DNA of 42,488 bases. Source: Hansschlegelia zhihuaiae (GTDB lineage Bacteria > Pseudomonadota > Alphaproteobacteria > Rhizobiales > Methylopilaceae). Under the pieces are notes generated by a model. It worked only from the letters and a program-made list of their open reading frames with translations. It searched no databases and was not told where the DNA came from. The stretch covers positions 114,987 to 157,474 of the forward strand of contig NZ_RYFI01000007.1 in NCBI RefSeq assembly GCF_004103825.1. The letters run 5' to 3'. Position 1 is the first letter of the stretch; each line of letters opens with the position of its first letter. Positions 2,100 to 26,216 of the stretch are shown here, piece by piece. The translations under genes and the position numbers were made by a program.

Positions 2100-2327
2100 A
2101 GCGGTCAAATCGTCCTCGAGCGGCCGGCCGGCGTCGATCTCGACGATCCGGATGTTGGCGCGCCGGGCATGGGGGTGGAGCGGGTCGTCGGGCCAGAACG
2201 AGCGCAAGCTCGCCACGGCGTCGGCGGACGCAGCCGCCTCGCGCATCGCCTCGGCGCCGCGGCCCGACAGGAAGGAGGCAAGTCGGGTCGCCGGCGGTTT
2301 CGCCGGTTGCACGGCCGCGACCTCGAC
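2100..2327 (-). pseudogene. Fragment resembling a metal ABC transporter substrate-binding protein
   Basis: On the minus strand the frame reads from about 2327 through AVQPAKPPATRLASFL, a stretch with SADAVASLRSFWPDDPL, then ARRANIRIVEIDAGRPL. The IRIVEIDA-RPL region is reminiscent of TroA/ZnuA-like periplasmic metal-binding proteins, as I recall them. Only about 75 codons remain out of roughly 300. There is no signal peptide, and the frame degenerates into low-complexity Arg/Pro/Ala sequence where it enters the 3' end of the convergent subtilase gene. I read it as debris of a decayed gene. The family assignment is from memory of the motif and is moderate at best. Confidence 0.4.
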
Positions 2328-2363
2328 CCCGGAGGCCGCAGCGCGGCTTCCCGGGGCGTGCGC

Positions 2364-3611
2364 TCACCTGCCGGTCGCGGAAGCGGCGGCTTCGCCGGCG
2401 TTCTGGCTGATCTGTCTGACCTGCCGGCCATAGCTGCGCCGGGTGGCTGGATCGACTATCGCGACGGGCGCCGTCGCCACGGCCGCCACCGTGGAGCCGA
2501 CGGCCGCAGCGGCCCCCACCGTCGCTCCGGCGATCCGCTCGCCGAGCGTGAGATCGGCGTCGGACACCTGCTGGCCGGCGATCAGGCGCGAGCCGATCAG
2601 CTTCACGACCTCGGGGCTTTCGGCGAACTTGCCGTGGTTCAGACTATCGCCCGCCTCCACCTTGCTGAGGTCGATCGCCACGATCTCGGCGGCCGCGAGC
2701 TTCGATTTGTAGGGTTCGGCGTCGGGGTCAATCGACCCGAGCCGGTCGATCCCGCCGGCCACACGGCGCGAAATCGCCAAAGCGCGGTCGTCGCGGGACA
2801 CCAGCACGGTGATCCGCGGCCGCGGCTCCGGAATCGCGAGGAAGTCGCTCCGGAACACGTCGACGTCGAGGTCGGGCGCCGCCATGATAACGTTTCGGAT
2901 CTTCGGATAGATCGAGCCGCGGCGGATCGCCATCTGCCGGAGCGCCTCGATCAGCACCCAATTGCCCATCGAATGCGCCATCACCGTCACCTCGCCGACG
3001 TTCGGGTTGGTCGCGGCGTTGGTCATCAGCGTCTCGAGCGCGTCGCGCGACATCGTCCCGCTCTCGCGGTCATAGAGGTAGTCGAACACGCTCCCGCCCG
3101 AGGGCCAGGTGAACAGGATCGGGGCGGCGTCGGTCCCGGAGTCGTGGGCGATCTGCGCGAAGCGATAAGCGGCCGCCTCGAAGGTGTTGTTGAAGCCGTG
3201 GACGAAGATCAGCACGTTCCGCTTCGGGCCGGCGACCGTGCGGAACCACGTCATGACGCCGGCCTTGTCCATGTCCTTGGCCTTCAGCGTCACGAAATCG
3301 GTCGCGGGATCCGCGGGCAGGCTTTTCGGCCATTGCACCGTCCCGACCTTGCGGGCCTGCGCGGGAGGGATCGAGACCACGAGGTTGAAGAGGGAGCGGT
3401 CCATGGCCCGCGCGCCGCTGTAGATCTCGCCCGTCGGCGTCTCGGTGCGCTCGCGGGTCGTCACCACGAGCATGTCGATCTTGCTCGCGCCGGGCGGCGG
3501 CGCGCTCGACGGAGTCGGCACGAGGACGTTCTCCGCTCGCCCGCCGCATCCGCACAAAGCGAGGGCGAGCGTGCCCGCAAGCGCGATGCGAGCCGGTCCG
3601 TGAACTGTCAT
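2364..3611 (-). CDS. DUF900-family alpha/beta hydrolase, predicted lipoprotein
   Basis: 415 residues. The N terminus has a short hydrophobic signal ending in LALCGCGG, a plausible lipobox, so the protein is probably a lipoprotein. The core carries the DUF900 alpha/beta-hydrolase pattern: VLIFVHGFNNTFEAAAYRFAQ (strand plus oxyanion region), ILFTWPSGG, the nucleophile elbow VMAHSMGNWVLIEAL (Ser in HSMGN), AAPDLDVDVF, and a late His in SLNHGKF. Members of this family resemble lipases or esterases but their substrate is generally undefined. The C-terminal 70 residues are Ala/Val-rich and may be a low-complexity or membrane-associating tail. Monocistronic and convergent with the upstream subtilase-like gene. 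Confidence 0.85.
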   Translation of the reverse strand: MTVHGPARIALAGTLALALCGCGGRAENVLVPTPSSAPPPGASKIDMLVVTTRERTETPTGEIYSGARAMDRSLFNLVVSIPPAQARKVGTVQWPKSLPADPATDFVTLKAKDMDKAGVMTWFRTVAGPKRNVLIFVHGFNNTFEAAAYRFAQIAHDSGTDAAPILFTWPSGGSVFDYLYDRESGTMSRDALETLMTNAATNPNVGEVTVMAHSMGNWVLIEALRQMAIRRGSIYPKIRNVIMAAPDLDVDVFRSDFLAIPEPRPRITVLVSRDDRALAISRRVAGGIDRLGSIDPDAEPYKSKLAAAEIVAIDLSKVEAGDSLNHGKFAESPEVVKLIGSRLIAGQQVSDADLTLGERIAGATVGAAAAVGSTVAAVATAPVAIVDPATRRSYGRQVRQISQNAGEAAASATGR

Positions 3612-6434: not shown

Positions 6435-7433
6435 TTGGCGCGCTTTCTGAAGATCCTGCTCGGCGTCGGCGCGCTCTTCGCAATCATCGTCGCGACGGCG
6501 TGGGCGTCGTTGGCCCTCTGGCACAGGGCGCCGGAGACTTTCTGGCTCAATGGAGCGGCTTCCGCGGCGTTCGCGATCCTCGGCGTCGCCACCGCCGCGG
6601 CATGGTTCGGCGCCAAGCGCCGCGGCGCGCTACTCCTCTTCGGCCTGGGCTTCGCGGCCGTGTCGCTTTGGTGGGGCGCCATCCGCCCACCCGCCATCGC
6701 CGACTGGGCGCCGGACGTCGCGCGCCAGGTGACGGGATCGGTCGAGGGCGACATCCTCACGCTCGAGAGCGTGCGGAACTTCGACTGGCGGCGCGACGAC
6801 GATTTCACCGAACGGTGGGAGACACGGAGCTACGACCTCAGCAAGCTGCGAACGCTCGACCTCTTCATGTCCTACTGGGCGGGCCCCGAAATGGCCCACA
6901 CGATCGTCAGCTTCGGCTTCGAGGGCGGCGAGCGCCTCGCCTGGTCTGTCGAGGTGCGGCGCCGGCGGGGCGGCGCGTTCTCGCCCGTCGCCGATCTGTT
7001 CAAGAGCAACGCGCTCGTCATCGTCGCCGCGGACGAGCGGGATGTGGTGCGCGTGCGGTCGAACGTGCGGGGCGAGGATGTCCAGATTTACCGTCTCCGA
7101 ACGCCGCCGGACCAGACGCGCGCCATCCTGCTGGAATATGTGTCGGACGCCAATGCGCTTGCGGCGCGACCCAAATTCTACAACTCGCTGACCACGAACT
7201 GCACGACCACCGTCGTGAAGATGGCGCGCGCCGCCGGCGGCGCGCTGCCCTTCGACTGGCGCCTGATCGTGAACGGCTACCTGCCGGACTATCTCTATGA
7301 GCAAGGGGCGCTGGACGTCCGGCTGCCGCTCGCGCGGGTGCGGGAGCTCGCGCATATCGCAGACCGCGCGCGGTCTGCGAACGCCTCTCCCGAATTCTCA
7401 GAGCTGATCCGCGTCGGGGCGCCGTCGCCGTGA
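6435..7433 (+). CDS. DUF4105 (Lnb N-terminal periplasmic domain-like) membrane protein
   Basis: 332 residues from a TTG start 36 bases after the FGE stop. Three hydrophobic segments at about 5-27, 40-58 and 66-82 are followed by a large periplasmic domain. That domain contains DVARQVTGSVEGDILTLESVRNFDW, FGFEGGERLAWSVEVRR and, near the end, FYNSLTTNCTTTVVKMAR with a conserved Asn-Cys-Thr. This pattern belongs to DUF4105, related to the N-terminal part of the chlamydial/bifidobacterial Lnb protein and to cysteine-protease-like folds. The biochemical role in proteobacteria is unknown to me. It is probably co-transcribed with the FGE gene by proximity, but a functional link is not established. 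Confidence 0.8.
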   Translation: MARFLKILLGVGALFAIIVATAWASLALWHRAPETFWLNGAASAAFAILGVATAAAWFGAKRRGALLLFGLGFAAVSLWWGAIRPPAIADWAPDVARQVTGSVEGDILTLESVRNFDWRRDDDFTERWETRSYDLSKLRTLDLFMSYWAGPEMAHTIVSFGFEGGERLAWSVEVRRRRGGAFSPVADLFKSNALVIVAADERDVVRVRSNVRGEDVQIYRLRTPPDQTRAILLEYVSDANALAARPKFYNSLTTNCTTTVVKMARAAGGALPFDWRLIVNGYLPDYLYEQGALDVRLPLARVRELAHIADRARSANASPEFSELIRVGAPSP

Positions 7434-8816: not shown

Positions 8817-9317
8817 ATGTCGCCTCTCGTCGCCGCAATGATCAGCCTCGGTGTTCTGGGCGCGATCGACACCTACATCACCGCGACCATCCTGCCCGTG
8901 CCGGTCTGGGTGACCTTCATCGCCTGGGCGTCGTTCTTCGCCTGCGGCGGCGGGTCCGACGGCTTCGTCAAGTCGGTCGCGCGGAACTGGACCGGCGTCG
9001 CGATCGCCTCGCTGACCCTGCTCGTCATCGCGATCGGCCCGAGCCATCCGATCTTCGCCGCCATCTGCGTCGGGCTCGGCACCTCGGCGATGGTCGCGGC
9101 CTCGGCGATCCCGCTGCTCGCCTTCCCGCCCGCGATCGTCTTCGGCTTCGCCTCGACGGTCGGAACCAGCGCGGCGACTGGCAAGACGATCCTGACCGGA
9201 GACATCAGCCACCCGACGATCGTCGCCGCGGTCGCGATGCTGGTCGGCGCGGGCTTCGGCTACCTCTCCGAGATCGGCACCAACATGCTGACCGCCAAGA
9301 AGCCGGCCGCGGCCTGA
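8817..9317 (+). CDS. DUF1097-family inner-membrane protein
   Basis: 166 residues, almost entirely hydrophobic, with about five transmembrane segments. It begins SPLVAAMISLGVLGAIDTYIT and contains ASFFACGGGSDGF and FGFASTVGTSAATGKT. This matches the DUF1097 pattern (about 160 residues, Gly-rich second loop). It sits 26 bases after the GTPase gene with GGAGA as ribosome-binding site and 28 bases before the beta subunit gene, so it belongs to the operon. Function of the family is unknown to me. Here it might move cobalt, a nitrile or the amide product, but the sequence shows no metal-binding His/Cys cluster. Confidence 0.8.
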   Translation: MSPLVAAMISLGVLGAIDTYITATILPVPVWVTFIAWASFFACGGGSDGFVKSVARNWTGVAIASLTLLVIAIGPSHPIFAAICVGLGTSAMVAASAIPLLAFPPAIVFGFASTVGTSAATGKTILTGDISHPTIVAAVAMLVGAGFGYLSEIGTNMLTAKKPAAA

Positions 9318-9345
9318 GCCCACCTTTCGAACGGAGCGACCAGAG

Positions 9346-10095
9346 ATGAAGCTTCAGCACACGCTCGGCGGGCTCGAGGGCCTCGGCCCCGTCTGGACCG
9401 AAACCCGCGTCTTCGTGGAGGAGTGGGAGAAGGGCATCTTCGGGATCCACACCGCCATGATGGCGCTGAGCCCGCAGCTGCCGCTGCCCGAGACCTCGAG
9501 CGTCTTCAAGACGGTCTGGACATGGGCGGACCTGCGCAAGGGCGCGGAGTCGATGAACCCCTTCGACTACTTCAAGTACCGCTACTACGAGAAATGGCTC
9601 GGCGGGATCTCAGGCTATTTCGTCGCCAACGGCTACATCACGGCGGACGAGCTCGAAGCCAAGACCGCCGAATACCTCACCGATCCGGATAAGCCGCTGC
9701 CGGAGGGCGGCGCGCCCGAGATCGACGCGCGAATCGTGCAGTATCTCGTCGACGGCGACTCGCCGAAGCGGGACGTCGATCCGAAGCCCGCATTCGCCGT
9801 CGGCGACACGGTGCTGATCAAGAACGTCCCGACCGTCGAGCACACCCGCCTGCCGGGCTTCCTGCGCAACAAGACGGGCGTCGTCACGGAAGTCTATCCT
9901 GGCGCCTATGTCTACCTCACGGACACCGGGGCGGACGGCATCGGCGACGCGATCGAGAAGGCGATGCCGGTCTATTGCGTGAAGTTCGACCCCGCCGACC
10001 TCTGGCCTGGCAACGCCGAGAGCAATTTTAGCCTCTACGCCGATCTCTACGCCGCTTATGTCGCCGAGCCGGTCCCGGCTGCGGCCGCCGCCTGA
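9346..10095 (+). CDS. nthB: Nitrile hydratase beta subunit
   Basis: 249 residues. The N terminus MKLQHTLGGLEGLGPV is the beta-subunit arm that wraps the alpha subunit. It is followed by FVEEWEKGIFGIHTAMMAL, DYFKYRYYEKWLGGI and the C-terminal SH3-like barrel AFAVGDTVLIKNVP ... HTRLPGFLRNKTGVVTEV, closing VKFDPADLW. The length is usual or slightly long, with an Ala/Pro-rich tail. Together with alpha it hydrates nitriles to amides in the cytoplasm. The order beta-alpha-activator is typical of cobalt-type operons, whereas iron-type operons usually run alpha-beta-P47K. No amidase gene is adjacent. Confidence 0.95.
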   Translation: MKLQHTLGGLEGLGPVWTETRVFVEEWEKGIFGIHTAMMALSPQLPLPETSSVFKTVWTWADLRKGAESMNPFDYFKYRYYEKWLGGISGYFVANGYITADELEAKTAEYLTDPDKPLPEGGAPEIDARIVQYLVDGDSPKRDVDPKPAFAVGDTVLIKNVPTVEHTRLPGFLRNKTGVVTEVYPGAYVYLTDTGADGIGDAIEKAMPVYCVKFDPADLWPGNAESNFSLYADLYAAYVAEPVPAAAAA

Positions 10096-10110
10096 CGGGG
10101 AGCGCAACCG

Positions 10111-10728
10111 ATGTCCGACCGCTTTTTCTACGACGCCGACCGCGAGAAGAAGAACGCGGCGCGCGCCAAGGCGCTGCAGGCTCTGCTCATCGAGAAGGGC
10201 GTCATCACCTCGAAGACCGTCGACACGGTGCTCGGCTATTTCGAGACCAAAATGGGTCCGTTCAACGGCGCGAAGGCGGTGGCGAAGGCCTGGGTCGACC
10301 CGGCCTACAGGGAGCGTCTGGTCGCCGACACGCCGGCCGCGATCGCGGAGCTCGACTTCCCTGAGGGCATGGCGGGCGCCGAGGGCGAGCACATGAAGGC
10401 CGTCGCCAATGGCGACGGCGTCCACAACCTCATCATCTGCACGCTCTGCTCCTGCTATCCGTGGCCGGTGCTGGGCCTGCCGCCCTACTGGTACAAGGAC
10501 CCGACCTTCCGGAGCCGCGCTGCGCGCGAGCCCCGCGCGGTGCTGAAGGAGTTCGGCCTCGACGTGCCCGCCGACGTCGAGATCAAGGTCTGGGACTCCT
10601 CCGCCCAGATCCGCTGGTTCGTCGTGCCCGAGCGCCCGGAGGGCACCGAGGGCATGAGCGAGGAGCAACTAGCCGCGCTCGTCACGCCCGAATCCATGAT
10701 GGGCGTCGCGGTCGCGAAAGCCGCCTGA
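10111..10728 (+). CDS. nthA: Nitrile hydratase alpha subunit, cobalt type
   Basis: 205 residues. The metal-binding claw is C110-T-L-C113-S114-C115, followed by [15 protein letters not shown]. Thr in the second position of CTLCSC marks cobalt-type enzymes (iron types have CSLCSC). C113 and C115 would be oxidised to sulfinic and sulfenic acid in the mature enzyme. It starts 15 bases after nthB with a GGGGAG ribosome-binding site. The rest of the fold is standard, including [16 protein letters not shown] and [14 protein letters not shown] near the C terminus. It forms the catalytic heterodimer with the upstream beta subunit. Confidence 0.96.
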
Positions 10729-15136: not shown

Positions 15137-15832
15137 TCAGTGGTCGTCCGCCGAGATCGTATAGCCGAAACCGCGCACGGTCCGGATCAGCGGGCGCTTC
15201 TCGCCGTCGTCGACCTTGCGGCGCAGGAAGCGGATATGGACCTCGAGCACCTTGGTGCCGGGGTCGAAGGACAGCTTCCAGACTTCCGAGAGCAGCTCTT
15301 CGCGGCCGACCACGGCGCCGGGCGATTTCATCAGATGCTCGAGCAGGGCGTATTCCCTGGGCGTGAGCGGAATGCGGCGCTTTCCCCTGATCGCCACCCT
15401 TGCGGACGGGTCGAGCCTGAGATCCCCGACCTGCAGCATGCCGTCCCCGCCGGGCCGCGGAACCGCGAGGGGGCGGCGCAGCAGCGCCTCGATCCGCGCC
15501 AGCGCCTCGCCCAGCGCGAAGGGCTTGGTGAGATAGTCATCGGCGCCGCCCTTCAGCCCGTCGATCTTGTCCTGGAGCGTGTCCCGCGCCGTCAGCATCA
15601 GCACGAGGCTCGCGCAGCCGCGGGCGCGCAGCTCCCTGCAGACCTCGACGCCGTCGAGGCCCGGCATCATGCGGTCGAGCACGATCAGCGCGAAGCTCCG
15701 CGCCCCTGCGATCTCGAGCGCCTGCGCGCCGTTGTTCGCGACCTCGACCTGATAGCCTTCAGCCTCGAGCCCTCTCTTCAGCACCGAGCGCAGCCGGTGG
15801 TCGTCCTCGACGACGAGCAGCCGCGCGCTCAT
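15137..15832 (-). CDS. OmpR/PhoB-type response regulator
   Basis: 231 residues. The receiver has acidic pocket VVEDDH (residues 7-12), phospho-acceptor D53 in LIVLDRMMPGLDG, and Lys in DDYLTKPF. The winged-helix effector (residues about 135-228) has LTPREYALLEHLM and ends VRGFGYTIS. It overlaps the upstream histidine kinase gene by four bases (ATGA), so the two are a cognate pair. The operon has a GGAATA-N16-CGTT promoter element (see 17433-17458), placing the pair in the same putative ECF regulon as the neighbouring secreted-protein and peptide-export genes. Confidence 0.95.
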   Translation of the reverse strand: MSARLLVVEDDHRLRSVLKRGLEAEGYQVEVANNGAQALEIAGARSFALIVLDRMMPGLDGVEVCRELRARGCASLVLMLTARDTLQDKIDGLKGGADDYLTKPFALGEALARIEALLRRPLAVPRPGGDGMLQVGDLRLDPSARVAIRGKRRIPLTPREYALLEHLMKSPGAVVGREELLSEVWKLSFDPGTKVLEVHIRFLRRKVDDGEKRPLIRTVRGFGYTISADDH

Positions 15833-17409
15833 GCGGCGAGGGGCAGCGACACCCGGACCTCGGTGCCCTGCCCCGGCGTGCTGGACAGCGTGATGTCGCC
15901 GTCATGCTTCTCGACGATCCAGCGCGCGATCGGCAGGCCGAGACCGTTGCCCACGACGCCCTCCATCGCGGTCGAGCCGCGATAGAAGCGGTCGAAGACA
16001 AAGGGGGCCTCGTCGACCGGTATGCCGGGCCCGCGGTCGCGGACCATGATCTCGACCCTGCCCGCCTCCACGGGCCGCACCTCGACCGTGATCTCGCTGC
16101 CCTCCTCGGCGTAGCGCGCCGAATTGTCGAGCATGACGAGCAAGGCCTGCTTCAGCCGGCGCGGGTCGGCGCGCACGACCGGAGCCGGCTTCGGACAGCG
16201 ATAGACGATGCGGATGCTGCGGCTCTGGGACAGCACGGACGCGTCCTGCACCGCCTGGTCGACCGCCCCGTCAAGGCTGACGCTGCGGAACTCGAAGCGG
16301 ATCTCGTCGGCGTCCGAACGGGCGAGGAACAGCAGGTCGTCGACGAGATCGCTCATCGACGCCGCATGCGCGACCACGCTCTCGAGCGCGGAGCGATAGA
16401 CGCCTTCGGGCCGCGAGGGTCCCCTGAGCGCGAGCTCCGCCTCGGCCCGCAGCACGGTGAGCGGCGTCTTCAGCTCATGGCTGATGTCGCCGAAGAAGCG
16501 CACCCGCTGCCGGTCGAGCTCGGTCAGCTGCCGGTTCGCGCTCGCGATCTCCTGGGTCCGTTCCGCGACCTGCCGCTCGAGCGTGTCGCGGGTGGCCGTC
16601 AGGTCTCGGCGGTGGGCCTCCAGCCGCGTGGACATGGCGTTGAAGCGCTGGGCCAGCACGCCGAACTCGTCGGGCCTGTCATAGACGACCCGGTGCGCGA
16701 GGTCGCCCTGCTCCACGGCGCGGGTGCCCTCGACGAGCGCGTCCATCGGCTTGCGCAGCGAACGGGCGAACAGCACGCCGGCCGCGACGATGACGGCGAG
16801 CAGCGCCGTGAGCGCCGCAAGGAAGCCGTAGAGCAGCGTCCGCGAGACGCCCTGCGCCAGTGTGTCGGCCTCGACCACGTCCTCGCGCTCGTCCGCCACG
16901 GCGGCGTCGATCAGCGATTCGAGCTCCTTGTCGTAGCGGTTCTCGATCTCGGTGCGGAACAGCGAGATCGCCTCCTCACGGCGGCCCTGCTGATCGAGCA
17001 GAAGGATGCGTTCGACCGTGCGGTCGATCGCGCGGACGAGCTGGCGCATACGGTCGAGCCGTCCCGCCTCCTCCCGCTCCTCGGCTTCGTTCGCCGGGTC
17101 CCGGAAGAAGTCGTCTTCCTGCTCGATCGAGCGGCGCAGCGCGTCGAACTGCGCGAGCATCTTGCGCCGCGAATCCTCGAATTCGAGCCTCTCCGGCTCG
17201 CCCACCAGCAGCAGCTCGGCGATTTGCTCGGAGAAGCGGTTCGCCCTCAGCGCAAGCTCGGTCATGGCGTCGACCTGCCGGCGCGAGATCTGGACCCGCT
17301 CGATGTAGTGGTTCGCGCCGCGCAGGCTGACGATGGCGGTCGCGGCGATCGCGACCACGGCGATCACCAGGACGATCTGGAAGACGCGGATGCGTCCCAT
17401 GATGCTCAT
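15829..17409 (-). CDS. Membrane sensor histidine kinase (HAMP, HisKA, HATPase_c)
   Basis: 526 residues (ATG 17400 is an alternative start). TM1 at about 8-28, a long helical periplasmic sensor of about 165 residues rich in Glu/Arg heptads (probably a four-helix-bundle fold), TM2 at about 195-215, HAMP, a coiled-coil stretch, then the H-box FFGDISHELKTPLTVL. The N-box is LLVMLDNSARYA, G1 VRDRGPGIP, F FVFDRFYRG and G2 VGNGLGLPIA, all intact. Phosphotransfer to the overlapping OmpR-type regulator is expected. The signal is unknown; the sensor form suggests an envelope or small-molecule cue. Confidence 0.95.
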   Translation of the reverse strand: MSIMGRIRVFQIVLVIAVVAIAATAIVSLRGANHYIERVQISRRQVDAMTELALRANRFSEQIAELLLVGEPERLEFEDSRRKMLAQFDALRRSIEQEDDFFRDPANEAEEREEAGRLDRMRQLVRAIDRTVERILLLDQQGRREEAISLFRTEIENRYDKELESLIDAAVADEREDVVEADTLAQGVSRTLLYGFLAALTALLAVIVAAGVLFARSLRKPMDALVEGTRAVEQGDLAHRVVYDRPDEFGVLAQRFNAMSTRLEAHRRDLTATRDTLERQVAERTQEIASANRQLTELDRQRVRFFGDISHELKTPLTVLRAEAELALRGPSRPEGVYRSALESVVAHAASMSDLVDDLLFLARSDADEIRFEFRSVSLDGAVDQAVQDASVLSQSRSIRIVYRCPKPAPVVRADPRRLKQALLVMLDNSARYAEEGSEITVEVRPVEAGRVEIMVRDRGPGIPVDEAPFVFDRFYRGSTAMEGVVGNGLGLPIARWIVEKHDGDITLSSTPGQGTEVRVSLPLAA

Positions 17410-17552: not shown

Positions 17553-18116
17553 TCAGAGCCTGCGGCACTGATCCTCCTTGTTGCCGCCCACGACATTGTT
17601 GCCGCCGGTCGGCGCCGGGCTGTTCTCCTTGCACTGGAGGTTGCCGTCGATCGTGTTGCGGCGGATCGTGATCTCGCCCGAATTCTTCACGACCTGGACG
17701 CTGCCCCCGACCTTGTTGCGAGCGATGTTGAGGACGCCGTCATTGTCGTCGTACTGGATGTCGGCCTCGACCCGGCTGTCGGCGACCGTCGCGCCGCCGC
17801 CCTGCTTGATCTGCACAGACCCGCCGACGCGGGAGCCGTCCCGCACTTTGACGCTCTTGTGGTTCTCGGCCTGAACGTTGCCGATCACCACGACGTCCTC
17901 GGCGACCAGCGTGGCGTTGGCCTCGACCTTCACCGTGCCCTTCACGCGCGTGCCGGTCAGCGTGCATTTCGCGTTCTGGGGCACGCGCACATTGTCGAGC
18001 GTGACCGCGCCGATCTCGCCGCGGCAGACCCGCTCCTCGGCGAAGGCCGACACGGGCAGGAGACATGCGACGCCGGCGGCTGCGAGCGTGAGCCGCGTGA
18101 ATGACGACCGCTTCAT
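17553..18116 (-). CDS. Secreted beta-helix-like repeat protein
   Basis: 187 residues. A clear Sec signal peptide (FTRLTLAAAGVACLLPVSAFA, cleavage after AFA) is followed by about six short repeats of the form V-x-G-x-V-x-V-x-x-N/G: TRVKGTVKVEANATLV, VVVIGNVQAEN, SRVGGSVQIKQGGGATV, SRVEADIQYDDN, NKVGGSVQVVKNSG, NTIDGNLQCKEN. This is the look of a small right-handed parallel beta-helix. Four Cys (CRGEIG near the start, KCTL, QCKEN, QCRRL) could form disulfides. The protein should be periplasmic or exported. Function is unknown. It is divergent from the arginine-serine peptide gene and both have the same kind of ECF promoter. Confidence 0.75.
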   Translation of the reverse strand: MKRSSFTRLTLAAAGVACLLPVSAFAEERVCRGEIGAVTLDNVRVPQNAKCTLTGTRVKGTVKVEANATLVAEDVVVIGNVQAENHKSVKVRDGSRVGGSVQIKQGGGATVADSRVEADIQYDDNDGVLNIARNKVGGSVQVVKNSGEITIRRNTIDGNLQCKENSPAPTGGNNVVGGNKEDQCRRL

Positions 18117-18228: not shown

Positions 18229-18242
18229 CGATTTAACCTCTT

Positions 18243-18321
18243 TTTAAACTGCCAGTAAATTCCTGAACCGAGGCTGTTTTAAACTGAATTTAAACTTGGC
18301 TTTTGTTCACGTGACCGTGAA
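18243..18321. promoter_or_regulatory. AT-rich divergent control region with repeated TTTAAACT and an inverted repeat
   Basis: TTTAAACT occurs three times in the same orientation at 18243-18250, 18278-18285 and 18289-18296. TTCACG (18306-18311) and CGTGAA (18316-18321) form a perfect inverted repeat around TGAC, 22 bases before the promoter at 18343. The stretch is much more AT-rich than its surroundings and lies between two divergent promoters, so it is a good candidate binding region for a regulator or nucleoid protein. Confidence 0.5.
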
Positions 18322-18367: not shown

Positions 18368-18447
18368 TGTCGCACGGGGCTGATGGCGGCGAGACGATGC
18401 TTCGATCGGCTTCCCCGCCACGAACCACAAGCGAAAGGAACGCCAAG

Positions 18448-18603
18448 ATGCGCGATCTCACCACCGAAGAACTCGGCCACGTCTATGGCGCTGGCGGCGA
18501 CGGACGCCGTGGCGGCGGCAACAAGAAGCGCAACCGGAGCCGCTCGCGCTCCCGGCGCAGCCGTCGGTCCCGCCGCAGCCGGCGCAGCCGCACCCGCGAC
18601 TAA
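18448..18603 (+). CDS. Double-glycine-type leader peptide precursor with an arginine-serine repeat core
   Basis: 51 residues, ribosome-binding site AAAGGAA 8 bases upstream. Residues 4-15, LTTEELGHVYGA, are a canonical C39-peptidase leader: Glu8 (-8), Leu9 (-7), Val12 (-4), Gly14 (-2), Ala15 (-1). Cleavage after Ala15 would release 36 residues; a second GG at 16-17 is the alternative. The core starts GGDGRRGGGNKKRN and continues with RS units and four RRS units, ending RTRD: 16 Arg, 2 Lys, 7 Ser and 2 Asp, net charge about +16. The RRS units use different synonymous codons (cggcgcagc, cgtcggtcc, cgccgcagc, cggcgcagc), which argues for selection on the protein. It has no Cys. The dedicated C39 exporter and adaptor follow. 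It resembles no bacteriocin I know; eukaryotic SR domains and protamines are compositional analogues only. Confidence 0.8.
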   Translation: MRDLTTEELGHVYGAGGDGRRGGGNKKRNRSRSRSRRSRRSRRSRRSRTRD

Positions 18604-18619
18604 GCCCCGCGGAAGCGAA

Positions 18620-18652
18620 GGGACGGATTAGGGCCCGGGCCCTGTCCGTCCC
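18620..18652 (+). terminator. Long hairpin between the peptide gene and the export genes
   Basis: GGGACGGA (18620-18627) pairs perfectly with TCCGTCCC (18645-18652), and inside it the 14-base palindrome AGGGCCCGGGCCCT (18630-18643) extends the structure. It begins 16 bases after the peptide stop. No T-run follows, so it would be a partial terminator or an mRNA-stabilising stem. Either would give more precursor than transporter. Confidence 0.65.
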
Positions 18653-18729
18653 CTCGCGCGCCGTCGTCGCGCCGCGCCTCGCGCCCGGCGGGCGGCGGCG
18701 GTCTTTCCTCCGGCGATGCGAGACGCAGC

Positions 18730-19677
18730 ATGAACGACGCTCCCGATCCGACCCTTTTCGCGCCGGCCCTCGGCGGGCTGGAATTGCGGGCGCGCCTGCT
18801 CGGCCAGCCGCATCTCGAGGACTACATCACATTCGTCCAGACCAGGACGGTCGGCGGCGAACGCGCCGACGTCAGGGCGCTCGCCGACGAGTGGCGCGAG
18901 GCGAACGACCATTATTACGAGCTCGAGCGGACCGAAGCCGGGATCGCCGACGACATCGAGCGGCTCGACGTCGAGCCCGAGCTTGCGCCGCTCATCGCGG
19001 AGCTCCAGGCCCAGCCTCGCTTCTCCCCGGCCCACGACCCGCTGCCGAGCCGGTTCGAGCTGGTCGAGGCCCACCGCCCCGTGGTGTCCCAGCAATCGGT
19101 CTCGCTGAACTTCGTCGAGACGCTGAAGAGCGGGCTCGGCCTCGCCCCGAGCCCCGAGCGGCTGTTCCGTTTCTGCCAGCCGATCGAGCCGCCCCAGGCG
19201 CCGGTCCGGGCGCAGCGTCTCGACGACAATCATTTCCTGTTCTCGTCCGACTCCTCAGACTTCCGCGCCCATGACGCGACGCTGCTGAGGCCCGCGCAGA
19301 TTCTGGAGCTCGCGGCCGCCGATCCGATGAGCGCGATCGTCGCCGTGCCGGTCGGGTTCGGGTCGAACGTGCTGCACGCGATCGAGACCGACGACCGGCT
19401 GATCCTGCAGAACGGCTACCATCGCGCCTATGCGCTGCGCGACCTCGGGATCACCCACGCCTATTGCGCGGTCCAGACGGTGACGCGCCGCGACGAGCTA
19501 AAGCTGGTAGCGGGCGAGCCTGTCATCGAGGCGCCGGAGTTCTACTGCCGCGCCAAGCGCCCGCCGCTGCTCAAGGACTTCTTCGATCCGAAGATCCGCA
19601 AGGTGCTGAACGTCCGCCGCATGAGCCGGATGATCGAGGTCAAGCTCGAGGTCCGCGAATACCAGGTGGTGGAGTGA
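18730..19677 (+). CDS. Unknown protein of the peptide-export operon, possible ParB/sulfiredoxin-like fold
   Basis: 315 residues, no signal peptide and no membrane segment. Residues about 170-275 contain LRPAQILELAAADP, VPVGFGSNVLHAIETDDRLILQNGYHRAYALRDLGI and AYCAVQTV. The order 'readout of a value, xNGxHRxxAL, small hydrophobic strand' resembles the GxHR/GERR motif of ParB/Srx-fold proteins (nucleotide-binding ParB, sulfiredoxin, serine kinases SerK and SbnI). The N-terminal 160 residues are helical and Glu-rich with no match I recognise. It ends one base before the HlyD-type gene, so it is part of the export operon. It could be an immunity, modification or regulatory protein. A Ser-directed kinase acting on the SR-repeat peptide is an attractive but unproven idea. 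Confidence 0.6.
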   Translation: MNDAPDPTLFAPALGGLELRARLLGQPHLEDYITFVQTRTVGGERADVRALADEWREANDHYYELERTEAGIADDIERLDVEPELAPLIAELQAQPRFSPAHDPLPSRFELVEAHRPVVSQQSVSLNFVETLKSGLGLAPSPERLFRFCQPIEPPQAPVRAQRLDDNHFLFSSDSSDFRAHDATLLRPAQILELAAADPMSAIVAVPVGFGSNVLHAIETDDRLILQNGYHRAYALRDLGITHAYCAVQTVTRRDELKLVAGEPVIEAPEFYCRAKRPPLLKDFFDPKIRKVLNVRRMSRMIEVKLEVREYQVVE

Positions 19678-19678
19678 C

Positions 19679-21016
19679 ATGGACGCGGCCGTCGCCCGGC
19701 GGGCGGAGCGCGCGACGGACGAGCCTCCGGCTCCCGCACCCGCTCAGACGAGCCTGTTCCGCCACGAGGTGATGGAGGAGCAGCAGACCCAGTGGCTCGG
19801 CACGGTGCTGGTCGCGCCTAATCTCTCGGCGACGCTGTTCGCGCTGTTCGCCGCCGCCGCGGTCGCGAGCGTGCTCGCGCTCCTTGTCCTCGGCCAGTTC
19901 ACCCAGAAGGCGCGCATCTCGGGCTGGCTCGTCCCCGAACTCGGCGCCATGCGGATCTTCGCGCCGCAGCCCGGCCGGGTCGCCAAGCTCCACGTCCGCG
20001 AGGGCGACCGCGTCGCCAAGGGCGCGCCGCTCGTGCGGATCTCGAGCGAGCTCGAGACGGAGGCCCTCGGCCGGACGCGCCACGCCGCCGTCCAGCAGCT
20101 CGCGCTGAGGCGCGACAGCCTCGCGGCGGAGCGCGAACGTCAGGGCCGCCTGTCCGCGCTGCAGGAGCGGGAATCCGCCGAGCGGATCGCGGCGCTCAAG
20201 GCCGAGCGCGAGAATCTCGCGCGCGAGATCGAGCTCCAGACGCAGCGCCTGAGGCTCGCCGAGCAGGCGAGCGAGCGGCAGCTCGGTCTCCGCGCCAAGG
20301 GGATCACGACCGAACGCAACCTGGAGGACGCCGAGGTCGAGCGGCTGCGCCAGTCGGCCGAGTTGCACGAGCTCGAACGCGACGCCCTGATCAACGAACG
20401 CGACCGGCTCGCGCTCGAGGCGAGGCTTCGCGAACTGCCGCTCCAGCGCGACGCCAAGCTCGGCGAGATCGACCGCAGCGTGGCGACGCTTTCGCAGGAG
20501 ATCGCCGAGGCCGAGGCGCAGCGCGAGATCGTCGTCACCGCGCCGCAGGACGGCGTCGTGACGCATGTCCGCTCGTCGCTCGGCGGCGATGTCCGCGCCG
20601 ACGCGCCGCTGCTTTCGATCATGCCGGAGGGCTCGAAGCTCACCGCCGAGCTCTTCACCTCGAGCCGCGCCATCGGCTTCGTGCGGTCGGGCCAGGAGGT
20701 GCTGCTGCGCTACCAAGCCTACCCGTACCAGAAGTTCGGCTCATACCGCGGGACCGTCGCCCAGATCTCGCGCTCGGCCGTGAGTCCGTCGGAGCTGTCG
20801 CCCCAGCTCGCGGGCCTCACCAGCCTGTTCGCCGCCGACGAGCCCGTCTACCGCATCGAGGTGACGCCCGAGCGCCAGTCCGCGACGGCCTACGGCGTCC
20901 CCGCGCCGCTGCAGGCCGGTATGCAGCTCGAGGCCGACATCCTGATCGAGCGCCGGCGGCTCTACGAGTGGATGCTCGACCCGCTGTTCACGCTGACCGG
21001 ACGGCGGAGCGCGTGA
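19679..21016 (+). CDS. HlyD-family membrane fusion protein (peptide secretion adaptor)
   Basis: 445 residues. A cytoplasmic N-terminal arm (about 50 residues) precedes one transmembrane helix (ATLFALFAAAAVASVLALLVL). Then come a barrel/lipoyl half (FAPQPGRVAKLHVREGDRVAKGAPLVRI), a long coiled-coil of Glu/Arg heptads (residues about 125-280), the second lipoyl half (IVVTAPQDGVVTHVRSSLGG), and a beta-barrel domain with RSGQEVLLRYQAYPYQKFG, typical of CvaA/HlyD adaptors of peptide exporters. It links the inner-membrane ABC exporter to an outer-membrane channel. No TolC homologue is encoded here. Its stop overlaps the exporter start (GTGA). Confidence 0.93.
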   Translation: MDAAVARRAERATDEPPAPAPAQTSLFRHEVMEEQQTQWLGTVLVAPNLSATLFALFAAAAVASVLALLVLGQFTQKARISGWLVPELGAMRIFAPQPGRVAKLHVREGDRVAKGAPLVRISSELETEALGRTRHAAVQQLALRRDSLAAERERQGRLSALQERESAERIAALKAERENLAREIELQTQRLRLAEQASERQLGLRAKGITTERNLEDAEVERLRQSAELHELERDALINERDRLALEARLRELPLQRDAKLGEIDRSVATLSQEIAEAEAQREIVVTAPQDGVVTHVRSSLGGDVRADAPLLSIMPEGSKLTAELFTSSRAIGFVRSGQEVLLRYQAYPYQKFGSYRGTVAQISRSAVSPSELSPQLAGLTSLFAADEPVYRIEVTPERQSATAYGVPAPLQAGMQLEADILIERRRLYEWMLDPLFTLTGRRSA

Positions 21017-23175
21017 ACCCCGCCAAACGCCTCAATTTCGGTGTCCGCCGGCGGCTCCCGATGGAGCTGCAGACGGAAGCCGCGGAATGCGGCCTCGTCT
21101 CCATCGCCATGGTCGCGAGCTATTTCGGCCACCAGGTCGGCGCGACCGAGCTCCGGCGGCGCTTCGGCCTGTCGCTCACCGGCGCGAGCCTCAAGGAGCT
21201 GGTCCGCATCGCCGACGAGATCGGGCTCGCGTCGCGGCCGGTCCGGCTCGACATGCACGAGCTCGGCCTCCTCCGGACGCCCTGCATCCTGCATTGGGAC
21301 CTCAACCATTTCGTCGTGCTGAAGAGCGTCGGCCGCAACGATGTGACGCTGCACGACCCGGCGGTCGGGCTCCGCCGCATGTCCCTGGCCGAGGCCTCGC
21401 GCCACTTCACCGGCGTCGCGCTGGAGCTGACGCCGACCGGCGGCTTCGAGACGGCAGCGCCGCCGCCGCGGGTGAAGATCCGCGCGCTGCTCGGCCGGCT
21501 GCAGGGCGTCGGGCGGTCGCTGACGCAGCTTCTGGCGCTCGCGCTCGCGCTCGAGGCGTTCGCGCTTCTCGCTCCCCTGTTCATGGTCTGGGTGATCGAC
21601 GACGCGCTGGTGACGGCCGACCGCGACCTGCTCACCACCCTGGTGCTCGCCTTCGGGCTGCTGCTCGTCCTGCAGACCGCAGTCTCGGCGATGCGCGACT
21701 GGGTGATCCTGACGCTCGGCGCCTCGCTGAAGGTGCAGGCCAGGACCAACCTGTTCTCGCACCTCATCAATCTGCCGCCGAACTATTTCGAGACGCGCTA
21801 TGTTGCCGACGTCATGTCGCGCTTCGGCTCGCAGGAGACCATCCTGCAGGCGATCACCACCGACCTCGTGGTCGGAGTGCTCGACGGGCTGATGTGCGCG
21901 GTGACCCTCGCTTTGATGTTCGTGTTCGCCCCGACGCTGACCCTCGTCGTGGTGGCGGGCGCGGCGCTCTACGTCGCGCTACGCTGGGCGCTCTACGGGC
22001 CGCTTAGGCAGGCGCAGTCCGAGGCGATCATCTGGGCCGCGCGCCGCGACGGCCACTTCCTTGAGACCCTGCGCGGCATCGGGGCCATAAAACTGTTCAA
22101 CGGCTACGAGGACCGCCGCGCGCACTGGCTGAACCTTCTGGTCGAGACCATCAACCGGCAGCTCACCACCCAGAAGCTCGAACTGCTGTTCAAGACCGCG
22201 AACCTGTCCCTGCTCGGAGCGCTCGCGCTCGCCGTGGTCTGGCTCGGCGCGCTCAACGTGCTCGAAGGCGCTTTCACGGTCGGCATGCTGGTCGCGTTCA
22301 TCGCCTACAAGGACATCTTCGTCCGACGGATCTCGGACCTCACCGACACCGTGGTCGAACTGAAGATGCTGCGGCTTCACGCCGAGCGCCTCGCCGACAT
22401 CGCGCTCGCGAGGCCAGAAGCGCGCGACCGGCTGATCGGCGAGCCCGCGCCCGCCCGGCGCCCGCTCGTGATCGAGGCCAGGGGCGTCTCGTTCCGCTAC
22501 AGCGTCAACGACCGCTGGGTGCTGAAGGATATCGGCTTCCGCGTCGAGGCCGGCGACTGGGTCGCGATCGCGGGGCCGTCCGGCTGCGGCAAGACCACCC
22601 TGCTCAAGATCCTCGCCGGCCTGCTGGAGCCGACCGACGGGACCATCCTGGTCGACGGCGAGCCCCTCAAGAGCCTGGGCCCCGACCGCTATCGCACGAT
22701 GCTCGGCGTCGTCATGCAGGACGACCAGCTGTTCGCCGGCTCGATCGCCGACAACATCTCGTTCTTCGCGAGCCGGCCCGACTTCGGCCGCGTCCAGCGC
22801 TGCGCCAGGATGGCGGCGGTCCATGATGAGATCGCCGCGATGCCGATGGGCTACGGCACGCTGACCGGCGACATGGGCGCGGCGCTCTCGGGCGGCCAGA
22901 AGCAGCGCGTGCTGATCGCCCGCGCGCTCTATCGCGAGCCGAGCGTGCTGCTGATGGACGAGGCGACGAGCCATCTCGACGTCGAGCGGGAGCGGGCGGT
23001 CAACGCCGCCATGCGCGAGACCAAAGCGACCCGCATCGTGGTGGCGCACCGGCCCGAGACGATCGACGCCTCGGACCGCGTGATCACGCTGAGAGACGGC
23101 CGCGTCGTCTTGGATGAGCGCGAGCGGCGAGGCGGCAGACGGCCGGAGGGGATCAAGGCGCCCGCTTCCGCGTGA
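21013..23175 (+). CDS. C39-peptidase-containing ABC exporter (PCAT, CvaB-like)
   Basis: 720 residues from GTG 21013, which overlaps the HlyD stop; the frame is open further upstream but within the adaptor gene. The N-terminal peptidase C39 domain has the oxyanion Gln20, catalytic C26 in LQTEAAECGLVS, H99 in WDLNHFVVLK and D115 in LHDPAVG, so the leader protease is intact. Six transmembrane helices follow (about 165-430). The ATPase domain has Walker A GPSGCGKTTLL, signature LSGGQKQRVLIARAL, Walker B VLLMDEATSHLD and the switch His in VVAHRP. Such exporters cleave GG/GA leaders and secrete the core peptide with HlyD and TolC. The substrate should be the 51-residue precursor at 18448. Confidence 0.96.
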   Translation: MNPAKRLNFGVRRRLPMELQTEAAECGLVSIAMVASYFGHQVGATELRRRFGLSLTGASLKELVRIADEIGLASRPVRLDMHELGLLRTPCILHWDLNHFVVLKSVGRNDVTLHDPAVGLRRMSLAEASRHFTGVALELTPTGGFETAAPPPRVKIRALLGRLQGVGRSLTQLLALALALEAFALLAPLFMVWVIDDALVTADRDLLTTLVLAFGLLLVLQTAVSAMRDWVILTLGASLKVQARTNLFSHLINLPPNYFETRYVADVMSRFGSQETILQAITTDLVVGVLDGLMCAVTLALMFVFAPTLTLVVVAGAALYVALRWALYGPLRQAQSEAIIWAARRDGHFLETLRGIGAIKLFNGYEDRRAHWLNLLVETINRQLTTQKLELLFKTANLSLLGALALAVVWLGALNVLEGAFTVGMLVAFIAYKDIFVRRISDLTDTVVELKMLRLHAERLADIALARPEARDRLIGEPAPARRPLVIEARGVSFRYSVNDRWVLKDIGFRVEAGDWVAIAGPSGCGKTTLLKILAGLLEPTDGTILVDGEPLKSLGPDRYRTMLGVVMQDDQLFAGSIADNISFFASRPDFGRVQRCARMAAVHDEIAAMPMGYGTLTGDMGAALSGGQKQRVLIARALYREPSVLLMDEATSHLDVERERAVNAAMRETKATRIVVAHRPETIDASDRVITLRDGRVVLDERERRGGRRPEGIKAPASA

Positions 23176-24690: not shown

Positions 24691-24744
24691 GAGTAAATCG
24701 CCGACGCGCTTCACGTCATTGCGATCCCGCCTTGATCGCCCGTC

Positions 24745-24770
24745 GGAATAGCCTCGCCCGAAGGGGCGTT
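24745..24770 (+). promoter_or_regulatory. ECF-type promoter of the subtilase gene
   Basis: GGAAT (24745-24749, next base A), 17-base spacer and CGTT (24767-24770), 30 bases before the ATG at 24801. Spacing and sequence match the divergent sigma operon promoter. Confidence 0.8.
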
Positions 24771-24800
24771 GTGGGCTGCGATCGGAGGGACCATCGAGCC

Positions 24801-26216
24801 ATGGCGACACGCAACCTTCTCGCTCTCGGGGGCCTCGCGGCGCTCGCGACGTTCGCGCTTGGCGGCCTCGACGCCGCCTTCGCGCCCGGCGGAACGCCGG
24901 GCATGCTGGCCGCGCCGGCGGCCGCCGACGACGATGACGACGGCGGCGGACGCGGCTGGCGTGGCGGCGGACGATTCTTCGACGACGATGACGACGACCG
25001 CCCGCGCCGCCGCGGGCCGCGCTTCTATGTCGAAGACGACGATGACGACGACGTCGAGGTCTATTACGAGCCTCGATGGCCCACGCCGCGCGCGCAACGG
25101 AGGCAGGCGCCGCCCCGCAGGGCGGCCGCCCCGCCGGAATTCGTGGCGGCCGGCGTCACGCAGGAGGCGCTCGGCCGGCTCCGCGCGGCGGGCTTCTCGA
25201 TCATCGCCGAACGGCGGCTCGGCCTGCTGCCCGAGGCGACCGTGCGGGTCGCGGCGCCCCGGAACCTGCGCGCCGCCCGCGCCCGGACGCGGCTCACGGA
25301 GCTCGCGCCTGGCGCGGTGATCGGCGCCAACGTCTTCTATCGGCCGAACGCGCGCCCCGCCTGTCCCGAGCGGGCCTGCTTCCCCTATGAGCCGGAACAC
25401 TGGAGCGTGCCGGTCTGCCCCGCGCGCGGGCCGGTCGGCATGATCGACACGCGCGTCGATCCTGGCCATCCGGCGCTCGCGAACCGCGCGATCGAAGCGG
25501 TTTCGACCCGCGGGGAGAAGCGCAAGCCCTCCGATCCCGCCCACGGCACCGAGGTCGCGATCCTGCTCGCGGGCGCGCGCGCCGAGCCCGACGACCTGAA
25601 GCTCGTCGCCGTCGACGCGTTCCACCGCGTGGGCTCGGACGATCGGGCGGACGTCTTCGACCTCGTGGCCGCGCTCGACCTTCTGTCGGAGCGCGGCGTC
25701 GGCGTCGTCAATCTGAGCCTGGCGGGTCCCGCCAACGAGGTGCTGGAGCGCGCCGGCCAGAAGGCTGCGGAGCGCGGCATGATCCTGGTCGCGGCCGTAG
25801 GCAATGAGGGCCCGAAGGCGAAGCCGCGTTATCCGGCCGCCTATCCTTGGGCGGTCGGGGTGACGGCCGTGGACGCCCGCGGCCTGCCCTACGCCAAGGC
25901 CGGGCGCGGCGAGCACGTCGCCTTCGCGGCGCCGGGCGTGCGGCTCGAACTGCCCGACGCCGCGCTGAAGCCCGGCCGCCAGCGCTCCGGCACGTCCTAC
26001 GCCTCGCCGCTGGTCGCGGCCGCCCTGTCCTCGCTGAAGGCGCAGTCGAATGGCCGTCCGGCGACCGAGATCGTCGCCGCGCTCGCCGCCGGGGTCGAGG
26101 ACAAGGGCGAGCCGGGTCGCGATCCGGTCTTCGGCTGGGGGACCCTGCCGCAGGACAAGGGCTGTCCGGCGGCCGTCAAGGGCGAGGCGCCGGCGCAGGC
26201 CTACTCGCGCGAATAA
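24801..26216 (+). CDS. Secreted S8 subtilisin-like serine peptidase with poly-Asp N-terminal region
   Basis: 471 residues from ATG 24801 (GGAGGG upstream). A signal-like hydrophobic segment (about 5-28) is followed by an unusual low-complexity region, residues 42-95. It has three runs of five to six Asp (43-47, 61-66, 79-84) separated by Gly/Arg-rich spacers, then Arg/Pro/Ala-rich sequence. Residues 115-175 resemble a subtilase propeptide (inhibitor I9-like: AGFSIIAERRLGLLPEATVRV). The catalytic domain is intact: D216 (GMIDTRVDPGHP), H248 (AHGTEVA), N335 (AAVGNEGP), S399 (SGTSYASP). Divergent from the sigma/anti-sigma operon with a matching promoter, it is likely a target of that sigma and may process envelope proteins, possibly the anti-sigma itself. 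Confidence 0.9.
   Translation: MATRNLLALGGLAALATFALGGLDAAFAPGGTPGMLAAPAAADDDDDGGGRGWRGGGRFFDDDDDDRPRRRGPRFYVEDDDDDDVEVYYEPRWPTPRAQRRQAPPRRAAAPPEFVAAGVTQEALGRLRAAGFSIIAERRLGLLPEATVRVAAPRNLRAARARTRLTELAPGAVIGANVFYRPNARPACPERACFPYEPEHWSVPVCPARGPVGMIDTRVDPGHPALANRAIEAVSTRGEKRKPSDPAHGTEVAILLAGARAEPDDLKLVAVDAFHRVGSDDRADVFDLVAALDLLSERGVGVVNLSLAGPANEVLERAGQKAAERGMILVAAVGNEGPKAKPRYPAAYPWAVGVTAVDARGLPYAKAGRGEHVAFAAPGVRLELPDAALKPGRQRSGTSYASPLVAAALSSLKAQSNGRPATEIVAALAAGVEDKGEPGRDPVFGWGTLPQDKGCPAAVKGEAPAQAYSRE

Follow-up and report, generated by a model that had tools for sequence, protein, structure and literature searches.

Serine-rich cationic peptides with a putative export system and a shared partner protein in Alphaproteobacteria

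A stretch of 42,488 nucleotides from the genome of Hansschlegelia zhihuaiae (the window; contig NZ_RYFI01000007.1, positions 114,987 to 157,474) contains a 51-codon gene for a cationic, Arg/Ser-rich peptide with a leader ending in Gly-Ala (GA), followed on the same strand by genes for a 315-residue protein, here termed P315, an HlyD-type adaptor and a C39 peptidase-containing ATP-binding cassette (ABC) transporter (PCAT). Comparison with other genomes revealed the peptide to be one member of an alphaproteobacterial family. Interest in the system stems from the presence of P315 beside a peptide gene in every locus with upstream sequence, and from the recurrence of P315 homologues by lasso-peptide genes. 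That the peptide is exported and acted on by P315 is given a probability of about one half.

The peptide gene and its family

The precursor gene (18448..18603, + strand; 51 codons and a stop) translates as MRDLTTEELGHVYGAGGDGRRGGGNKKRNRSRSRSRRSRRSRRSRRSRTRD, in which the leader MRDLTTEELGHVYGA (18448-18492) is followed, past GA, by a core of 36 residues (18493-18600) that include 16 Arg, 2 Lys, 7 Ser, 2 Asp and no Cys, for a net charge of +16 (Lys and Arg minus Asp and Glu). A Shine-Dalgarno-like AAGGAA, read in the sequence by eye, lies ahead of the start at 18435..18440 on the + strand. Translation and composition agree with the first-pass annotation of this DNA, which had described a 51-codon gene comprising such a leader and an Arg/Ser core. 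The leader pattern used for scanning occurs a single time across the six frames of the window, and a search of the genome itself with the peptide returned one match at E 0.001.

The earlier annotation had also invoked varied synonymous codons as proof of coding. Taken alone, this argument is weak, the variation being only moderate (Arg: CGC 10, CGG 4, CGT 2; Ser: AGC 4, TCC 2, TCG 1); conservation of the leader offers stronger evidence. The same-genus homologues, from Chenggangzhangella methanolivorans CHL1 (L024) and a Methylopila metagenome-assembled genome (MAG; L023), are 69% identical. In codons 1-17, the window differs from L024 by six synonymous changes and one nonsynonymous change and from L023 by five and one, respectively, with L024 and L023 differing by four and none, such that differences in this same-genus trio are chiefly synonymous, third-position ones. 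Given that leader changes are mostly synonymous and that homologues exist in distant genomes, the open reading frame (ORF) is judged to be coding and the 51-codon sequence to be a genuine gene. Arg/Ser-rich frames are frequent in this GC-rich window, as a chance reading frame would have it, but the conserved leader with its mostly synonymous changes, the same position in 11 of 11 loci and the Shine-Dalgarno-like site render such an origin extremely improbable, and it was rejected on comparison with the homologues.

Homologues of the peptide gene were found in 11 further genomes. With the window included, 12 genomes contain P315, all alphaproteobacterial, namely, those of three Methylopilaceae, Methylobacterium nodulans, Rhodobacter, Paracoccus, three Novosphingobium, an Erythrobacteraceae MAG, Blastomonas and an unassigned alphaproteobacterial MAG. 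These were reached using P315 as bait, with seven relatives coming from genome contigs and four from plasmids; as the genome contigs were scanned with two short patterns only, members may have escaped. MAGs met twice (G298, identical to L025, and G819, identical to L028; first 5000 bases identical) were each counted once. Homologous clusters lacking the short ORF, or presenting it with a broken frame, had been named by the first-pass annotation as what would speak against its proposal; in each of the 11 P315 loci with upstream sequence, the window among them, a short ORF of like build instead lies directly upstream of P315. In the twelfth genome, that of the Methylopila MAG, peptide and P315 are found at the ends of two different contigs. 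Since two loci carry two such peptides, the family comprises 14 peptides in total.

All 14 peptides begin with MR[DE]L and have a leader ending in GA, conforming to the pattern MR[DE]L-xxx-E-xxx-V[YS]GAG, with VYGAG in 12 and VSGAG in two (the Blastomonas pair). Cores range from 32 to 52 residues and, in 13 of the 14, present a net charge of +10 to +16 and a Ser/Thr content of 22-31%. Arg-Ser dominates the window core and Lys-Ser those of Sphingomonadales and Methylobacterium; the L029 core is of Lys-His-Ser-Thr, and the two Rhodobacterales cores comprise an Arg-rich block and then Ser-Asn. What is conserved is composition and alternation, with the letters drifting; the common theme is Ser interspersed with Arg, Lys or His. 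The earlier reading holds in the form of a family of leader-bearing, cationic Ser/basic peptides tied to a C39 exporter, with the RS/RRS repeats being only the local version. It had passed over P315 as the constant partner, and over the 187-residue protein and the two-component genes described below. The lack of core Cys, noted for the window in the earlier annotation, is shared by both relatives in its genus and by the two Rhodobacterales (5 of 14 cores) but not by the family, in which nine of the 14 peptides carry one or more core Cys, some in a Cys-bearing front part.

The second peptide of the Blastomonas plasmid, weakly cationic and of the VSGAG type, is encoded at 3516-3698 of L034. In L023, the MAG contig end adjoining the peptide gene (33-60) reads GLGDVYKRQ, which we take to be an assembly or adapter artefact. 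Immediately ahead of the Novosphingobium MW5 cluster (L030, ~7240-7315), a tRNA-like sequence was seen by eye, hinting at an island.

Linkage with P315 and the exporter

When 101 relatives were searched with the peptide, some match at E <=1 was obtained in 70 genomes. Three matches were convincing (3e-24, 8e-11 and 4e-10), all three in genomes containing P315; the remainder, starting at E 0.004, belonged to other reading contexts, with stops in several of them, and were left out of the count. Within the genus, peptide, P315 and a 187-residue protein co-occur in three of 13 genomes, with the other ten giving no match for P315 or the 187-residue protein and no peptide match better than E 0.008. 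P315 is rare, being found in one of 297 genomes of the order, one of 385 of the class and three of 296 of the order of G683, one of these three being the distant homologue L048. In a sample of the phylum, four of 349 genomes gave a match, two of which were marginal (5e-4 with two stops, and 8e-4) and were dropped. A made-up, family-like peptide of 47 residues found no match in plasmids (tblastn, low-complexity filter on), and the leader pattern had no occurrence in viral contigs.

Just past the peptide stop and ahead of P315 is a strong stem-loop (18609..18664, + strand; -38.9 kcal/mol, z -4.1). In all six loci folded, of the 12, a hairpin lies at this same place, composed of unlike letters, with z <= -3.9 in five and -2.0 in L031. 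The hairpin probably serves to raise peptide output above that of the exporter.

The gene encoding the HlyD-type periplasmic adaptor (19679..21016, + strand; PF13437 and PF16576, both above cut-off) is separated from the P315 stop by a single base and overlaps that encoding the PCAT (21013..23175, + strand), which comprises C39 peptidase, ABC membrane and ABC ATPase domains. Starting translation from the GTG at 21013 puts C26, H99 and D115 in place, and the best NCBIfam match is TIGR03796, under its cut-off. Coordinates, Pfam domains and residues hence bear out the earlier description of P315, HlyD and a C39 PCAT, with its three catalytic residues intact, downstream on the same strand. Across 17 PCATs checked, 12 of them P315-linked and five not, the catalytic Cys and His patterns are present in all 17 and the string DPA in 16, the exception being L033.

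In a tree of these 12 P315-linked and five P315-less PCATs, the linked sequences fall into two groups, each with support of 100/100. The label of P315 linkage needs at least two changes on this tree, and none of 200 bootstrap trees places the linked PCATs on one side. On these grounds, it is suggested that peptide and P315 stayed together, as a unit, while exporters differed. The window PCAT is ~40-41% identical to five P315-linked PCATs (L026-L030) and 47-52% identical to five P315-less plasmid PCATs, and the exporter genes of L026-L030 and L034 lie on the strand opposite to peptide and P315. The five P315-less records, namely, the three most similar among the matches listed and two alphaproteobacterial ones (27 P315-less records were listed, with 3002 more records beyond), gave no P315 match. 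A plausible leader peptide was noted near three of their PCATs, each differing in make-up from the Ser/basic family (proline-rich, glycine-zipper-like and mixed, respectively), and none was found near the other two. This small sample favours the view that the Ser/basic peptide goes with P315.

On Paracoccus versutus pTAV3 (L045, 2473-2667), a peptide with a GG-type leader and a Pro/Arg-rich core (GLDGVPPPEQRPRRPIVPPQRPWPRFP...) is encoded beside a PCAT and resembles a proline-rich antimicrobial peptide. No TolC gene was seen among the neighbouring window genes looked at, and in Blastomonas a gene for the outer-membrane subunit is present. In Methylobacterium nodulans (L033, 12763-13794), a FemA/FemB-type glycyltransferase gene follows that of the PCAT.

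P315 and the proposed handling of the peptide

P315 (18730..19677, + strand) is a possible distant relative of ParB/Srx proteins, marked by an N-G-x-H-R element. Searches of Pfam, NCBIfam and the PDB assigned the protein to no family at the usual thresholds, and its profile returned nothing meaningful from the PDB. Residues E113, Q121, N228, G229, H231 and R232 are among those invariant in 19 P315 homologues. Two of its stretches, VELDKLVVSQ and LxNGYHRAYALRxxG, are reminiscent of ParB/Srx proteins. When the 19 homologues were aligned using hhalign, a score of 39.4 (probability 82) was obtained with four ParB_N domains from the same genome (four of its five PF02195 places) and of 30.3 (probability 49) with a fragment of SerK. 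The best of 200 shuffles of the SerK fragment scored 19.1 and nine other window proteins at most 20.8, such that P315 aligns more closely with the G-x-H-R region of SerK than with shuffled or unrelated sequences. NCBIfam gave weak SerK matches in six of the 19 members and an SbnI match in one. These comparisons suggest that a short C-terminal element of P315 faintly resembles proteins of the ParB/Srx fold, including the free serine kinases SerK and SbnI. A 2025 survey describes the fold as a module for ATP binding in SerK, SbnI and Srx (PMC12704722).

Homologues of P315 were also encountered outside Alphaproteobacteria, in six of 198 genomes of family f237 (L057 and L064-L068). In all six, the homologue adjoins, divergently, genes for a lasso-type precursor, a B protein and a C-like cyclase. 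The precursor has a core ending in GTLWDG[VI]FPTTSP and a leader with weak benenodin/subterisin likeness. The B protein scored above the lasso_biosyn_B2 cut-off in both genomes tested, and precursor and cyclase matches fell under curated cut-offs. B-like proteins occur in 22 of 198 f237 genomes (by their handles, apparently the same sample as that searched for P315), the six close ones being exactly those of the six genomes containing P315; the 16 genomes with distant B-like proteins gave no P315 match. The f237 lasso product is possibly modified. In the window, no lasso B or C enzymes are found among the cluster genes. Because these homologues adjoin a lasso cluster and because of the ParB/Srx likeness, P315 most likely acts on peptides. 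On the Blastomonas plasmid, a 2-oxoglutarate-Fe(II) oxygenase gene (L034, 2590-3351) comes directly after P315; together with the second peptide, it suggests further tailoring there.

In the scheme we propose, the precursor, with its GA leader of the microcin type and its Ser-rich, cationic core, would enter a dedicated peptide-export system. P315 would recognize the precursor and act on it ahead of export, most likely through phosphorylation, or some other nucleotide-driven change, of Ser hydroxyls, a modification that would mask positive charge inside the cell. The PCAT would then cut after GA, and the core would be exported via HlyD and a TolC-type channel to bind polyanions outside, be they cell envelopes, polysaccharide or DNA, as an antimicrobial or matrix component. 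Phosphorylation is the first guess because of the weak SerK/SbnI likeness, because most cores keep Ser/Thr among Arg, Lys or His, and because Ser/Thr numbers suffice to cancel every core's charge: by arithmetic, two charges per Ser/Thr would offset at least the net core charge in 14 of 14 peptides. A kinase step by P315 is nonetheless a tentative proposal, on the doubtful side. A dedicated kinase, BsfK, phosphorylates a core Ser of a leader-bearing lasso precursor and is weakly similar (<35%) to HPr kinases (PMC10368454); P315, by contrast, has no such Pfam match, and the window peptide is no lasso peptide. The broadest version, in which P315 would be the founder of a family of peptide kinases with the ParB/Srx fold, acting on two classes of ribosomal peptide unrelated to each other, with a secreted Arg/Lys-Ser polycation as the alphaproteobacterial target, is somewhat less probable still.

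Several points weigh against the proposal that P315 acts on the exported peptide. Most peptides were found through P315 as bait, so that the 11 of 11 count is silent on peptides lacking P315, and the distant homologue L048 shows neither peptide nor PCAT in the 12 kb covered. Well-supported branches of the PCAT tree alone force only one change, and the P315-linked exporters may be of one single origin. The six lasso-linked f237 genomes, coming from two genera, represent one descent group and one origin. The ParB/Srx alignment of P315 spans only ~40 residues; of the four ParB domains taken singly, two score under their own shuffles and two above. E-values of single proteins range from 0.0047 to 1.1 and are not significant, and two members queried against the PDB reached SbnI and SerK at E near 1, with unrelated chains scoring alike. 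Pfam ParB (PF02195, E up to 10) matched none of the 19 members, and P315 is absent from the five PF02195 places of its own genome. As to the proposed chemistry, P315 presents N-G-x-H-R where the SerK and SbnI stretches present D-G-x-H-R, and SerK, which acts on free serine, is reported to have no activity towards serine that is part of a peptide (PMC5120207). With +2 and 11% Ser/Thr, the second peptide of Blastomonas is barely cationic, and homologues of the two-component genes that neighbour the window cluster stand beside only three of the 12 clusters.

The peptide could instead be an unmodified, class II microcin-like cationic antimicrobial, with P315 serving as immunity protein or as a cytoplasmic chaperone that shields nucleic acids until export. 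To our knowledge, the core is unlike those of known microcins. Otherwise the set-up fits, as class II microcins have leaders cleaved at GG or GA and are encoded with an exporter and an immunity gene (PMC9746304), comparable to the GA leader end, the PCAT with intact Cys-His-Asp and the HlyD adaptor seen here; that P315 and the peptide gene are neighbours at all 11 loci, and that 13 of 14 cores have a net charge of +10 to +16, point the same way. The window family differs in its cores of 32-52 residues with Ser and Arg/Lys/His repeats, in the constant presence of P315 and in having no recognized immunity gene; moreover, P315 matches no known family, contains an element weakly resembling a nucleotide-binding fold and has homologues accompanying a lasso peptide of no obvious likeness to this core. 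We consider this explanation unlikely, if the strongest of the alternatives. The peptide might also be a structural or matrix component, similar to EbfG, with the polycation cross-linking surface polysaccharide or DNA, in the genus possibly together with the 187-residue protein. Biofilm formation in Synechococcus elongatus needs small GG-motif proteins (EbfG1-4) secreted with a C39-type peptidase transporter (PteB), a non-antibiotic role, and the abstract names no P315-like protein (PMC4997328). A repeat core with freely drifting letters and the tracking of the peptide by the 187-residue protein within the genus agree with such a role; the absence of the 187-residue gene from nine cluster loci searched beyond the same-genus ones (L049 being the second contig of a carrier) does not. 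Although we regard it as less likely again, a matrix role is compatible with action by P315, differing only in what the peptide does outside.

Finally, P315 could act on the operon, as a ParB-like regulator or through DNA binding, rather than on the peptide as an enzyme. A few of the 19 members weakly match ParB-like partition PHROGs, and EdeB, of the ParB family, activates an antibiotic cluster (PMC9641203). Yet P315 has no helix-turn-helix or ParB family match, a two-component system is already at hand in three clusters, and the ParB domains of the same genome carry G-x-R-R where P315 carries G-x-H-R. This explanation is accordingly held to be quite improbable.

Transport of this kind is known from class II microcins and EbfG; for the core type, the peptide family and P315, searches of the open-licence literature listed no description. 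Eukaryotic SR proteins and protamines are polycationic, with Arg-Ser repeats in which Ser may serve as phosphate sites for SR-protein kinases. The likeness of the window peptide to these is one of composition and logic only, with no homology shown. Were P315 indeed a kinase of such peptides, the pair would be an exported bacterial counterpart of a protamine or SR protein and its SR kinase, with phosphate keeping a nucleic acid-binding polycation harmless until exit. If P315 modifies peptides, it would represent a new enzyme family for ribosomal peptides, and a secreted, phosphate-masked polycation would bear on making protamine-like peptides without self-poisoning.

Neighbouring genes

Upstream of the peptide gene lies the gene for the 187-residue protein (17553..18116, - strand), which has a signal peptide-like N-terminus, judged by eye, and no family (0 Pfam matches). 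In the two genus relatives, this gene is on the same strand as that of the peptide, whereas in the window it is on the opposite strand. Further upstream are genes encoding a sensor histidine kinase (HAMP, HisKA and HATPase domains; 15829..17409, - strand), a possible regulator, and an OmpR-type response regulator (15137..15832, - strand). In the Paracoccus and Rhodobacter loci, the gene for a kinase with 38-41% identity to this one immediately follows that of the PCAT, and the response regulator found there has 52% identity to that of the window; at E 1e-8, the remaining cluster loci searched contained no homologues of either. This kinase-regulator pair may control the peptide.

Direct repeats resembling TTTAAAC, in two pairs with a spacing of 11 bp (18232..18296, + strand), are weak candidates for regulator sites. 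Of the window's four TTTAAAC/GTTTAAA sites, three fall in this region. Comparable short repeat pairs of any letters occur at 6.4 per kb of window, and the repeats are missing from eight other upstream regions; as direct-repeat pairs are this common by chance, a conserved box was rejected.

Past the PCAT, beside a sigma/anti-sigma pair, the window encodes an S8-type protease with poly-Asp stretches (24732-26216). In each of the three carriers from this genus, such a protease is encoded no more than a few kb from the peptide; a 65% homologue is present in the peptide-less G034, with weaker matches elsewhere, and the protease was rejected as a specific partner. In C. methanolivorans (L024), the S8 protease gene (2247-3571) and the HlyD gene (9044-10266) are each split over two frames, perhaps owing to sequencing errors.

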